64,000 nt of DNA from Stenotrophomonas africana (GTDB lineage Bacteria > Pseudomonadota > Gammaproteobacteria > Xanthomonadales > Xanthomonadaceae). A program made the translations under genes and the position numbers. Every line of letters starts with the position of its first letter. The first letter of the stretch is position 1. Shown in pieces: positions 53,557-58,702 of this stretch. The notes under the pieces are model-generated. The model ran no database searches. It worked only from the letters and a program-made list of their open reading frames with translations, and had not been told where the DNA came from. The stretch spans positions 186,001 to 250,000 of the forward strand of contig NZ_JABEME010000001.1 in assembly GCF_013004645.1 (NCBI RefSeq), written 5' to 3'.

Positions 53557-54387
53557 ATGAACGACCTTTCCAACGCCGTGCCGATGCAGCGCATCGCCGT
53601 GCCGTCCTCGCACGAGAGCCTGCACACGCCGTCGCCGGTGAAGCTGGCTGCGCGTGGACTGGACTTCTACTACGACAAGTTCCACGCCCTGAAGGGCATC
53701 AACCTGGAGATTCCGGAAAAGCGCGTGACCGCGCTGATCGGCCCCTCCGGTTGCGGCAAGTCGACCCTGCTGCGCATCTTCAACCGCATCTACGCGCTGT
53801 ACCCGAAGCTGGAAGCGCGCGGTGAAGTGCTGCTGGACGGCGAGAACATCCTGTCGCCGAAGTACCCGATGAACCGCCTGCGCAGCAAGGTCGGCATGGT
53901 GTTCCAGAAGCCGGTGCCGTTCCCGATGACCATCTTCGAGAACGTCGCCTACGGCATCCGCCACCACGAGAAGCTGAGCAAGGCCGACATGGCCGACCGC
54001 GTCGAGCAGGCGCTGCGCCAGGGCGCGCTGTGGGACGAAGTGAAGGACAAGCTGGGGCAGAGCGCGCTGGGCCTGTCCGGTGGCCAGCAGCAGCGTCTGT
54101 GCATCGCCCGTGCCGTGGCGCTGCGCCCGTCGGTGCTGCTGCTGGACGAGCCGACCTCGGCGCTGGACCCGATCTCGACCAGCCGCATCGAGCAGTTGGT
54201 GGAAGAGCTCAAGCACGAGTACACCATCGTCATCGTCACCCACAACATGCAGCAGGCCGCGCGCGTGTCCGACTACACCGCCTTCATGTACCTGGGCGAC
54301 CTGATCGAGCATGACCGCACCGAAGTGATCTTCTCGCAGCCGTCGCAGCGGCAGACCGAAGACTACATTACCGGTCGCTTCGGCTGA
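53557..54387 (+). CDS. pstB: Phosphate ABC transporter ATP-binding protein PstB
   Basis: This 276-residue ATPase energises PstCA. It has Walker [18 protein letters not shown] near residue 62, the signature [16 protein letters not shown] near 167, Walker [16 protein letters not shown], and switch histidine in [17 protein letters not shown], a PstB-specific stretch. ATG 53530, overlapping pstA by 8 bp, is an alternative start that would add nine residues. SMAG repeats follow before phoU. Confidence 0.95.
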
Positions 54388-54393
54388 AACGCC

Positions 54394-54449
54394 AGTCGAG
54401 CGTGGCTCGGCTCTACAGACAACGCCAGTCGAGCATGGCTCGACTCTAC
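54394..54449. repeat. Two SMAG stem-loops between pstB and phoU
   Basis: AGTCGAGC-GTG-GCTCGGCT + CTAC and AGTCGAGC-ATG-GCTCGACT + CTAC stand head to tail inside what should be one operon. They leave 14 bp before the phoU start. They may tune phoU relative to the transporter genes. Confidence 0.85.
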
Positions 54450-54463
54450 AGAGTGGAACAACC

Positions 54464-55171
54464 ATGAACCTTCCCAACGACCACATCGTCAAGAGCTACG
54501 ACGAAGAGCAGCAGCGCCTGGTGGCCGAAATCGTGCGCATGGGCGAGATGGCCGTCGCCCAGCTCGAAGCGGCGATGGACGTGATCGAGAAGCGCGACGA
54601 GAACGCTGCCCATCGCATCATCGCCAACGACGAAGCGATCGATGCGCTTGAGCAGCAGATCAGCCACGACGTGATGCGCCTGGCGCTGCGTGGCCCGATG
54701 GCGCGCGACCTGCGCGAGATCCTGGCGGGCCTGCGCATCCCGGCCGACATCGAACGCATCGGTGACTATGCAGCGAACGTGGCCAAGCGTTCGATCGCGC
54801 TGGGCAAGGTGCCCCCGCTTCCGCAGATCCAGGGCCTGCGTGCGCTGGGCCGCCTGGCCGCGCAGCAGGTGCGCCGCGCCATTGCCGCCTACCGCGACAA
54901 CGACGCCGATGCCGCGCTGGAACTGCGCGAGGACGATGCCCGCCTGGACGCGCAGTACACCGCGCTGTTCCGTGAGCTGCTGACCTACATGATGGAAGAC
55001 CCGCGCAACATCACCCCGTGCACGCACCTGCTGTTCATGGCCAAGAACCTGGAGCGCGTGGGCGACCACGCCACCAACATCGCCGAGAACGTCTGGTTCC
55101 TGGTGCACGGCGAGCAGCCGCTGCCGCCGCGCGAGAAGCGCGACGAGACCTCCAGCACCGGGCAGATCTGA
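54464..55171 (+). CDS. phoU: Phosphate-signalling regulator PhoU
   Basis: This 235-residue cytoplasmic protein helps PstSCAB hold PhoR in the off state when phosphate is ample. It is a pair of three-helix bundles, each with the metal-binding E/DxxxD motif: ADIERIGDYAAN near residue 98 and KNLERVGDHATN near 198. It ends the pst operon and is followed by an intrinsic terminator. Confidence 0.95.
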   Translation: MNLPNDHIVKSYDEEQQRLVAEIVRMGEMAVAQLEAAMDVIEKRDENAAHRIIANDEAIDALEQQISHDVMRLALRGPMARDLREILAGLRIPADIERIGDYAANVAKRSIALGKVPPLPQIQGLRALGRLAAQQVRRAIAAYRDNDADAALELREDDARLDAQYTALFRELLTYMMEDPRNITPCTHLLFMAKNLERVGDHATNIAENVWFLVHGEQPLPPREKRDETSSTGQI

Positions 55172-55205
55172 CGCTGCACTGCAACACCAGAGTTGGATCC
55201 AGGGT

Positions 55206-55239
55206 GGCCGCTGTCCTTGTGACGGCGGCCTTATTTTTT
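55206..55239 (+). terminator. Intrinsic terminator after phoU
   Basis: GGCCGC (55206-55211) pairs with GCGGCC (55225-55230), followed by TTATTTTTT. It separates the Pho operon from the ribosomal-peptide operon downstream. Confidence 0.8.
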
Positions 55240-55428
55240 GGGGTGTTCCCCCGCATTGTGGGCGCCGGACTTGCCCGGTGCGAACCTGCCGGATGCTTCT
55301 GTAACAAACCTCACGAAAATTTGAGTTCTTGGCGAGGATTCGTTGAGTAGGATCGCTGCACCATCGTTTCCACCGGCATCCCTGCCGGCCACCCGGGCAC
55401 CCGCCCACACCACCCAGGAGCACGACCG

Positions 55429-55785
55429 ATGAGCAGTTCCAACAAGACCCTGTCCCTGCTGACTGCTACCGCCCTGGCCGCCGGCCTGGGCATGACCGCC
55501 AGTGCCTCGGCCCTGAGCATGAGCGACCTCGCCCAGGGCTACCTGGTGGCCGGACAGGCAGCCAAGGCCAGTACCGACGCCAAGGCCGCCGACACCAAGA
55601 TGGCCGCTGACGCGACCAAGCATGCCGAAGGCAAGTGTGGCGCCGACGGCAAGACTGCCGAAGGCAAGTGTGGCGCCGACAAGGGCAAGGCTGCCGGTGC
55701 GGCAGCTGGCGCCAAGGCCAAGACCGGCGACAAGAAGGCGGCCGAAGGCAAGTGTGGCGAAGGCAAGTGCGGTGCCAAGCACTGA
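55429..55785 (+). CDS. hvfA: HvfA/BufA-type RiPP metallophore precursor with four EGKCG motifs
   Basis: This 118-residue exported precursor has a Sec signal peptide at about 1-28, then [12 protein letters not shown], a segment seen in HvfA proteins. A Lys/Ala-rich body carries EGKCG at 67-71, 78-82, 106-110 and 111-115. The only four cysteines are 70, 81, 109 and 114, one in each motif. In HvfA and bufferin systems a DUF692 oxidase with a DUF2063 partner converts such cysteines to oxazolone-thioamide or thiooxazole groups that bind copper. Here those partners follow at once. A 24-bp stretch (55624-55647) is repeated exactly at 55657-55680, so the motif has grown by duplication. The actual modification and metal are inferred. 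Confidence 0.87.
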
Positions 55786-56647
55786 CGTCCGCGCCAGCGT
55801 CGTCAGCCCGCGGTCGCCGCTTCGTGCGGCGGCCGCAGGGTTGGGGCTGCGCCGGGCGCTGTTGCAGGAGCTGCGTGATGCACCGGCCGGCGACTTCGAT
55901 TTCCTCGAATGCGCACCGGAGAACTGGATTCACGTCGGCGGTCCCGCCGGTGATGCACTGGCCGAACTGGCGCAGCGCCATCCGTTGAGCTGCCACGGCC
56001 TGTCGTTGTCGCTGGGCGGCAGCGCGCCGCTGGACACCCGTCTGCTGGAACAGATCGGCCAGTTCCTGGAGAAGCACCGCGTGCCGCTGTATAGCGAGCA
56101 CCTGAGCTACTGCAGCGACGACGGACACCTGTACGACCTGCTGCCGATTCCGTTCACCGACGAAGCAGTGCGCCATACCGCCGCACGCATCGCCCGCGTG
56201 CAGGACCTGCTGGGTCGCCGCATCGCGGTGGAAAACGTGTCCTACTACCTGGCACCGGAACCGGCGATGGACGAACTGGCCTTCACCCTTGCCGTGCTCG
56301 CCGAGGCCGACTGTGACCTGTTGCTGGACGTCAACAACGTCTACGTCAACGCCTGCAACCATGGCTACGACGCCGACACTTTCATTGCCGGGCTGCCCGC
56401 TGAGCGCATCGTCTGCCTGCACGTGGCCGGGCACCTGGACGAGGCACCGGACCTGAAGATCGATACCCATGGCAGCGCGGTGATCGATCCCGTCTGGGAC
56501 CTGTTGGCGCGTACCTACGCGCGCATCGGCCCACGCCCCACCCTGCTCGAACGCGATTTCAATTTCCCGCCCTATGCAGAACTGCAGGGCGAACTGCAGA
56601 CCATCCGCCGCCTGCAGACCGCACACGCCGGGGCTGCACATGGCTGA
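55772..56647 (+). CDS. hvfB: DUF692 MNIO-type RiPP maturase (HvfB/BufB)
   Basis: This is a multinuclear non-heme iron oxidase expected to modify the cysteines of the upstream precursor. It has 291 residues and a TIM-barrel. Metal-ligand and active-site motifs of DUF692 are all visible: PENW near residue 51, [10 protein letters not shown] near 75, SEHLSY near 107, ENVSYY near 158, [17 protein letters not shown] near 190, HVAGH near 222, DTHG near 235 and ERDFNFP near 268. GTG 55772 is the only start that gives a normal N-terminus; it lies 14 bp inside hvfA, implying translational coupling. It overlaps hvfC by 8 bp. Confidence 0.9.
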
Positions 56648-57395
56648 CGCCACCGACACCCTGCGCGCGCAGCAGCACGCGTTCACTGCCCATCTGCGCG
56701 ATCCGGAGAGCGTGCCGCCACCGGCCGGCCTGGAGCCACGCAGGGTGGCGGTGTACCAACGGCTGCTGTTCAACAATCTGCTCGGCCTGTTGAGCAACGG
56801 CTTCCCGGTCTGCATGCGCCTGCTCGGCGAACCGGCCTGGAGCGGACTGGTGCGCCAGTACTTCGCGACCCATCGCTGCCAGACGCCGCTGTTCACCGAA
56901 CTGGCCGCCGAATTCGTGGAGTGGCTGCAGGCGCAGCCACAGCTGCCGCACCCGGCGTTGGCCGAACTTGCTCATTACGAATGGGTGGAAACCGCGCTGT
57001 ACCAGCTTCCTGCCGAGCCGCTGCCGGTGCCAGGTGACATCGACCCGCTGCGGGTGCCGCTGCAGCGCTCGCCGCTGGCGTGGCCGCTGCTGTACCGGTG
57101 GCCCGTGCACCGGCTTGGTGCCGAGGACGCACCGTCACAACCGCCGGCCGAACCGACCGGCCTGCTGGTCCGTCGCGAGGCCGATGGCGAGGTGCGCTTT
57201 GCCGTACTCAGCCGACTGGCGGTGTACCTGCTGTCCAGCATCGGCGAACACCCCGGCCTCGATGGCCATGCCTACCTGCAGCAGCTAGCTGCTGCGCACG
57301 GCCTGGCCGATGACGCGCTGGCCCTACCCGGTGCTGCGCTGCTGCAACAGTTCCTGCAGGCCAGCGTGATCGGCCCGCTCGCAGTCCCCAGCTGA
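56640..57395 (+). CDS. hvfC: DUF2063 RiPP maturation partner (HvfC/BufC)
   Basis: This 251-residue cytoplasmic protein is thought to bind the precursor and present it to the DUF692 oxidase. The DUF2063 core runs over about 5-95, with [23 protein letters not shown] near 35, followed by a C-terminal domain of about 110 residues with [14 protein letters not shown] and a winged-helix-like end. ATG 56640 lies 8 bp inside hvfB; the earlier in-frame ATG lies only over hvfB sequence. DUF692 plus DUF2063 pairs are the defining core of these peptide-modifying loci. Confidence 0.88.
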
Positions 57396-57420
57396 CGCCC
57401 CTTCCCCCGGAGAACCACCT

Positions 57421-57942
57421 ATGAACCTCCCGACCCTGGCCACCGCGCGCGGCCAGCTGGACCGTCTCGCCCCCTGGTTGGCCCCGCTCGGCCTGCGCCT
57501 GCTGCTGGCCTGGGAATTCTTCGAATCCGGCCGCGAGAAACTGCACGGCCAGAACTGGTTCGCCGATCTGCAGGACGCCTTCCCGTTCCCGTTCGACCAG
57601 CTGCCGGCCGCCCTGAACTGGCAGCTCGCCACCTGGTTCGAACTGATCGGCGCGGCCTGCCTGCTGGTTGGCTTCGGCACCCGGTTTGCCGCAGCCAGCC
57701 TGCTGGTGCTGACCATTGTGGCGACCTATGCAGTGCATTGGCCGATGGAGTGGAACTCGCTGGCCGACCTCGCCATGGGCTATGCGATCACTGACCAGGG
57801 CTTCGGCAACTTCAAGCTGCCGGTGCTGTTCATGGCGATGCTGCTGCCACTGATCTTCACCGGCGCCGGCAGACTGAGCGTGGATGCATGGTTGGCGCGG
57901 TGGTCTCCCTCGGCCACACCTGCGCGGCCAGCGGTTCGGTAG
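57421..57942 (+). CDS. hvfX: DoxX-family membrane protein (HvfX/BufD)
   Basis: This 173-residue inner-membrane protein has four helices (near 22-40, 65-85, 90-110 and 135-155). The first carries [21 protein letters not shown], the DoxX/HvfX start. It closes the precursor-oxidase-partner-DoxX order known from Haemophilus hvf and Caulobacter buf operons. Its exact task is unsettled; redox supply or metal handling has been suggested for the family. The stop TAG is inside a GTAG repeat head. Confidence 0.85.
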
Positions 57943-57962
57943 GTGTCGACCTTGGTCGACAC
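57939..57962. repeat. SMAG unit at the end of hvfX
   Basis: GTAG (57939-57942), whose TAG is the hvfX stop codon, is followed by GTGTCGACC-TT-GGTCGACAC. It is probably also the 3' end signal of the operon. Confidence 0.82.
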
Positions 57963-58023
57963 ACGCCCACGCCGGGAACCCATGCACAGAAGGCTGGCCG
58001 GGCACTCAGGGTCGCTCTGCTAG

Positions 58024-58683
<660 letters not shown>

Positions 58684-58702
58684 GCCAGCCAACGGCGCAA
58701 CC

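Follow-up and report, generated by a model that had tools for sequence, protein, structure and literature searches.

The window analysed here is a stretch of 64,000 nucleotides from Stenotrophomonas africana. At positions 55429-57942, it carries on its forward strand genes for a precursor, an MNIO (DUF692) oxidase, a DUF2063-RRE partner and a DoxX protein, in that order. The first gene (55429-55785) encodes an HvfA-like precursor of 118 aa with four EGKCG motifs (NF050137, 33.9 bits; cut-off 19.5). The second (55772-56647) encodes an HvfB-family MNIO oxidase (PF05114, 336.3 bits; NF003818, 417 bits; cut-off 360), and its putative start is the GTG at 55772, near which there is no in-frame ATG. 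The third (56640-57395) encodes an HvfC-family partner made up of a DUF2063 domain and an NGO1945 C-terminal/RRE-type domain (NF050145, 258.5 bits; cut-off 142; PF09836, 93 bits; PF22106, 83 bits), and the fourth (57421-57942) an HvfX-family DoxX membrane protein (PF07681, 74 bits; NF050144, 156.4 bits; cut-off 80). A sequence-only reading had proposed a four-gene hvf-type operon with a four-EGKCG precursor, and the genes were found where it had placed them, with the expected domains matched. Its assignment to the hvf type was borne out by the NCBI models for HvfB, HvfC and HvfX, all matched over their cut-offs; with the HvfA-family domain included, NCBIfam models exceeded their cut-offs for all four products. 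The description of the genes as overlapping held for the first two junctions (14 bases for precursor/MNIO and 8 bases for MNIO/partner) but not for the partner and DoxX genes, which lie 25 bases apart. Outside the operon and on the same strand, phoU lies upstream (54464-55171; PF01895, 144.6 bits) and an RNase-T-type exonuclease gene downstream (58033-58683; PF00929, 75.9 bits).

The operon is an additional member of the known Buf_EGKCG/oxazolin (captophorin) family, a kind already well described. About 2,000 precursors of this family have been reported, mostly clustered with MNIO, DUF2063 and DoxX genes in varied combinations (PMC12452194), and DoxX/HvfX is usual in these clusters, not obligatory. 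By profile score, the locus precursor is of the HvfA family and is not HvfA itself, as it scored 24.6 bits against the HvfA equivalog NF050188, whose cut-off is 95. No paper on the Stenotrophomonas locus was found in the PMC literature among the matches listed, nor was a PMC report of modification or metal binding found for any Stenotrophomonas relative.

The closest described counterpart is hvfABCX of nontypeable Haemophilus influenzae (oxazolin), with an EGKCG precursor, an HvfB-family MNIO, an HvfC-family partner and an HvfX-family DoxX protein as here; HvfA has three repeat units (PMC13419390), whereas the locus precursor combines one tandem pair with two motifs that stand singly. Fontiphorin (fonABC, Fontimonas thermophila) and gonophorin (Neisseria gonorrhoeae) share EGKCG repeats and an MNIO with a PME1 partner; fon is described as precursor, MNIO and partner only (PMC13097082), whereas the locus also has DoxX. 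The mmr cluster for bulbicupramide in Microbulbifer likewise combines an EGKCG precursor with a conserved N-terminal region, an MNIO and a DUF2063 partner, and is conserved across its genus as the locus is in its own, but it belongs to a marine genus and its core is described as two-Cys cassettes (PMC12538549). Bufferin buf operons share a Sec-exported precursor, a related MNIO, a DUF2063 partner and DoxX (PMC12452194), but bufferin precursors are of the DUF2282 or 6/12-Cys kind and the locus precursor is of the EGKCG kind. The bufferin maturase model for BufB (NF050167) was not reached by the locus MNIO (264.8 bits vs 310). The Buf1 bufferin family was founded on Caulobacter. Caulobacter vibrioides is likewise named for Buf2, and bufferins are the Buf1 (DUF2282) or Buf2 families, separate from the EGKCG family (PMC12452194), so the earlier mention of Caulobacter buf as an EGKCG system has to be withdrawn. 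Membership of the locus in Buf1 was considered and rejected: the precursor had no match in the Pfam profile search, the genome had no DUF2282 (PF10048) match at E 0.001, and the MNIO fell below the BufB cut-off.

The precursor begins with a putative Sec-type signal peptide (55429-55512), recognised by eye from a Lys, a hydrophobic run and a cleavage site after ...SASA. Its four exact EGKCG motifs lie at 55627-55641, 55660-55674, 55744-55758 and 55759-55773, the last two in tandem; when its residues were shuffled 20,000 times, the motif appeared 0.00025 times on average and at most once. Several same-genus relatives have three EGKCG pairs, and the motifs are kept among relatives while the linkers vary. 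In vitro, FonBC modified a two-repeat substrate and not a one-repeat substrate (PMC13097082). Because two of the locus motifs are single, possibly not all four are modified. As a separate observation, many relatives at the phoU site (L035, L037-L040, L042, L044-L047, L049-L051, L053-L056 and L058) carry EF-hands between two EGKCG blocks, a layout that differs from the published one, in which the EF-hands are at the C-terminus.

The solved structures nearest by sequence were PDB 3bww for the MNIO (E 2.4e-79) and PDB 3dee for the partner (E 7.9e-9). LDVNN and DTHG segments are present in both the locus MNIO and PDB 3bww. HvfB requires N175, D242 and H244 for activity (PMC13419390), and the two segments hold putative counterparts of these residues, mapped here by motif. 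The locus MNIO also keeps an R27/R28 pair and an ERDFNFP segment, which by motif would correspond to the Arg pair and the Asp-Phe of the Lys-Cys MNIO group (PMC13097082). In the Haemophilus system, the active mixed-valent diiron state of HvfB requires HvfC, and HvfA without its signal sequence is modified poorly (PMC13419390). The reported products of fontiphorin, oxazolin and gonophorin are 5-thiooxazoles, and the class was named captophorins; copper binding was shown for fontiphorin and gonophorin (PMC13097082). For the Haemophilus product an oxazolone was originally proposed, but a 5-thiooxazole, with -4 Da per Cys, has since taken its place (PMC13097082), and the oxazolone that had been entertained as a cysteine product at the locus is superseded with it.

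An MNIO match was found in 80 of 91 Stenotrophomonas genomes and none in the other 11. The 80 comprise 78 genomes with a place of the first type, that of the locus, one with a second-type locus only (G089) and one with a 47-residue fragment (G076), the latter two standing outside the counts for the 78 loci. All 78 fetched first-type loci contain the partner, 77 an EGKCG-type precursor and 62 DoxX; the sole locus in which no precursor was found (L105) starts near a contig end. DoxX was not found in 16 of these 78 loci, namely 14 among the 23 divergent loci L083-L105, plus L073 and L074. Across the wider family, an MNIO match was obtained for 154 of 198 genomes. One record titled Bacillus subtilis SK7B5 (contig JAHREJ010000007.1) contains a locus of this Stenotrophomonas type (L160, with 85% MNIO identity) and is therefore probably mislabelled or contaminated.

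The 11 genomes with no MNIO match could be read as signs of a decaying cluster, an old operon kept without function, as could a stop flagged inside the matched MNIO stretch in 3 of the 78 places (G057, G029 and G027) and one stop in the aligned MNIO part of L097. However, the stops in G029 and G027 come after about 272 aligned residues, close to where the aligned part finishes, like a normal gene end, and G057 shows no stop in the aligned part. At the locus itself the frame is intact, and precursor motifs outlast varying linkers, so that decay is a highly improbable account of the operon.

The position directly behind phoU had been called unusual in the sequence-only reading. Among the 78 same-genus loci, phoU is the upstream neighbour in 73 and the exonuclease the downstream neighbour in 55; 52 loci have both and 76 at least one. 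For 31 of them (L004-L034) 1,500 bases were fetched per side, and an exonuclease not seen in these cannot be counted as absent. The two loci with neither neighbour are those of G001 and G002 (L100 and L101). All 24 examined loci from other genera of the family are flanked by phoU and/or the exonuclease, in an uneven sample of 25 family loci taken from among the closest matches; the remaining one, L036 (genome G057), is a short same-genus stretch with neither neighbour, and a longer stretch of the same genome (L085) has phoU. Since nearly all of the close relatives examined share the site, the phoU position is inherited and common among them, not unusual. The 51 named loci, also closest matches, had phoU and/or the exonuclease in 27, these being Stenotrophomonas, most Lysobacter, Luteimonas, Vulcaniibacterium and Pseudoxanthomonas; Arenimonas loci had the exonuclease only, and neither neighbour was seen for the Pseudomonas loci and for Lysobacter L182 and L210, which have the second-type order. 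The 28 loci taken from other class families had neither phoU nor the exonuclease within about 1,500 bases on each side.

A tree was built of 158 MNIOs, with identical sequences, those shorter than 240 aa and 24 of the 30 loci L005-L034 left out. On this tree, 5 changes account for the phoU/exonuclease label, compared with 51.7 on average after shuffling, and the label does not mark a single clade. The MNIOs of most of the divergent same-genus loci L095-L105 group with those of Luteimonas and Pseudoxanthomonas, not with the locus MNIO, at a support of 94, which is below the starred level. At this site, cassettes may therefore have been exchanged in situ or may descend from old copies by sorting. 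The site also exists without the operon. Fourteen genomes were searched (12 with no full MNIO match, plus G001 and G002), and the exonuclease was present in 13; phoU lies within about 220 bases of it in 5 of the 13 (L120, L121, L122, L130 and L131). L119 has only a 27-residue phoU-like tail, at a contig end, L128 has a phoU tail about 1.4 kb from the exonuclease, and no phoU was found within the fetched stretch in six of the 13.

Such proximity could mean that the operon is co-transcribed with phoU or regulated like it, in a link to phosphate starvation, which is favoured by the 73 same-genus loci, out of 78, that have phoU immediately upstream. However, phoU is followed by a terminator-like stem with a T run (55206-55230, forward strand; TTATTTTTTG comes after the stem), and the precursor gene has a conserved block of its own on its upstream side. 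The scan found 2 such stems in total, which does not exceed the 2.0 expected in shuffles; in the alignment it is kept in the relative L079 with changes on both paired sides. Furthermore, phoU was near none of the 14 second-type and none of the 28 other-family loci, within the fetched stretch, and phoU and the exonuclease are adjacent in five genomes that lack the operon. A functional phoU link was rejected, descent explaining the shared position, and we regard phosphate regulation as very unlikely.

The conserved block, TCACGAAA...GATTCGTTGAG (55311-55347, forward strand), is a candidate operon promoter region, judged by alignment and pattern counts. Its pattern, which was drawn from these loci, occurs in 48 of 55 close same-genus loci, the locus itself included, and in none of 23 divergent same-genus, 25 family, 14 second-type and 28 class loci; a similar strict pattern had one match in the genome. 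A sigma-70 promoter search gave no match in 54000-58700. An ECF-sigma promoter was also considered for the block but found no support: the pattern was absent from second-type, divergent and family loci, and a strict form of it occurred once in the genome.

The genome contains one more MNIO gene and one more DUF2063 gene, both in a second captophorin-type operon (L003:6300-9868; about 518300-521900 of G000:C1). Its order is DoxX, an EF-hand-fused precursor, MNIO, partner and a ferric-reductase-like membrane protein; in the precursor the EF-hands come after three EGKCG and one EGQCG, and the MNIO shows 64-65% identity. This operon is of the published EGKCG/EF-hand type. Both operons have EGKCG motifs, MNIO, partner and DoxX, whereas DoxX in first place, an EF-hand-fused precursor that lacks the GY motif described below, and a ferric-reductase-like protein in last place are found in the second alone. 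In the 91 genomes, 27 such lower-scoring places were listed, and in all 14 of the 27 that were examined DoxX, partner and ferric-reductase-like genes surround the MNIO gene and phoU is absent within the fetched stretch. A conserved TTTGTATC...ACTGTA box, possibly an operator, lies upstream of the DoxX gene of this operon (6300) and in L106-L118.

Comparison of precursors revealed a conserved L-x-x-G-Y motif (LAQGY at the locus) within an 11-residue stretch (55519-55551, forward strand) between signal peptide and core. When 86 distinct contexts were aligned on GY, 79 had L three residues before G, 57 had D or E before that L, and 70 had Q or S directly before G. Distinct precursors were counted if 25 or more residues preceded the core. 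A pre-core GY was found in all 73 first-type precursors of the genus (shuffles predict 6.3), in all 25 from the family (2.9 predicted), in 50 of 51 from named contigs (5.6 predicted; the exception, L210, belongs to the second type) and in 20 of 22 from the class (2.1 predicted); in the second-type precursors of the genus it was found in 0 of 14 (0.0 predicted). The same-genus set omits from the 78 loci one with no precursor, two duplicates and two that were too short, and the class set omits from 28 loci five with no precursor and one too short; the sets partly overlap, as some genomes are present both as named and as unnamed contigs, and relatives do not count as independent cases. Pseudomonas EF-hand precursors carry GY, and therefore EF-hands and the absence of GY are not coupled everywhere. 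Text searches of PMC for the GY motif gave no captophorin paper among the matches listed, sequences inside figures being outside their reach.

Junger et al. reportedly treated the signal peptide as leader-like in 2026. It is treated in this way in PMC13419390, and a conserved N-terminal region was reported for Microbulbifer precursors (PMC12538549). The L-x-x-G-Y motif may be part of the partner docking site. In a short FonA construct, no single pre-core residue was strictly needed (PMC13097082), which counts against any single pre-core residue being essential. The absence of GY from the second-type operon suggests two separately recognised pathways per cell. Taken further, gammaproteobacterial EGKCG precursors may have L-x-x-G-Y as a second docking element, read by the RRE domain of the partner and kept in the exported product, and many Stenotrophomonas genomes may have two mutually insulated captophorin pathways, one of GY-type at the phoU site, the other GY-less, of the EF-hand type and served by a separate partner; this extended proposal is tentative, and we hold it to be possible but somewhat doubtful.

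We consider it likely that the locus is a Stenotrophomonas captophorin (EGKCG/oxazolin-type) operon acting as follows. In the cytoplasm, the partner would dock the precursor via the signal peptide, and probably also via the adjoining LAQGY stretch, and would keep the iron centre of the MNIO active, in the mixed-valent state. That enzyme would then oxidise EGKCG cysteines to 5-thiooxazoles, with 4 H lost from each. The Sec system would export the modified peptide, the signal peptide being removed, and in the envelope the mercapto-oxazoles would bind Cu(I) and relieve stress from copper or related soft metals, with assistance from the DoxX protein. The chemistry and the roles of the partner and signal peptide are carried over from published relatives onto the gene content, order, family membership, residues and genus-wide conservation observed here. 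By this analogy, 5-thiooxazole formation at the locus is highly probable.

Copper buffering in the envelope is predicted with less assurance, as the somewhat more plausible function. The same chemistry might serve mainly against oxidative or gold/soft-metal stress, or in a redox role with DoxX. When copper was added, no protein of the related Microbulbifer cluster was detected; growth of E. coli with copper was only slightly improved, and the study hesitated to ascribe copper protection to the cluster (PMC12538549). Oxidative or other soft-metal stress therefore stays a live rival. Bufferin operons also go by the name of gold-induced genes, and elsewhere a DoxX homologue confers protection from oxidative or sulphur stress (PMC12452194). 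The characterised EGKCG products, however, bind copper (PMC13097082), and we judge a main role other than copper buffering to be unlikely.

With copper buffering as the preferred reading, a widely conserved copper-peptide pathway would be placed in Stenotrophomonas, where it has long been at one chromosomal site among close relatives. Stenotrophomonas is a hospital and soil genus. Substrate choice by captophorin enzymes is given as an open point in the captophorin papers, and the GY motif, together with two dissimilar precursor/partner pairs per genome, would offer a natural experiment on it.
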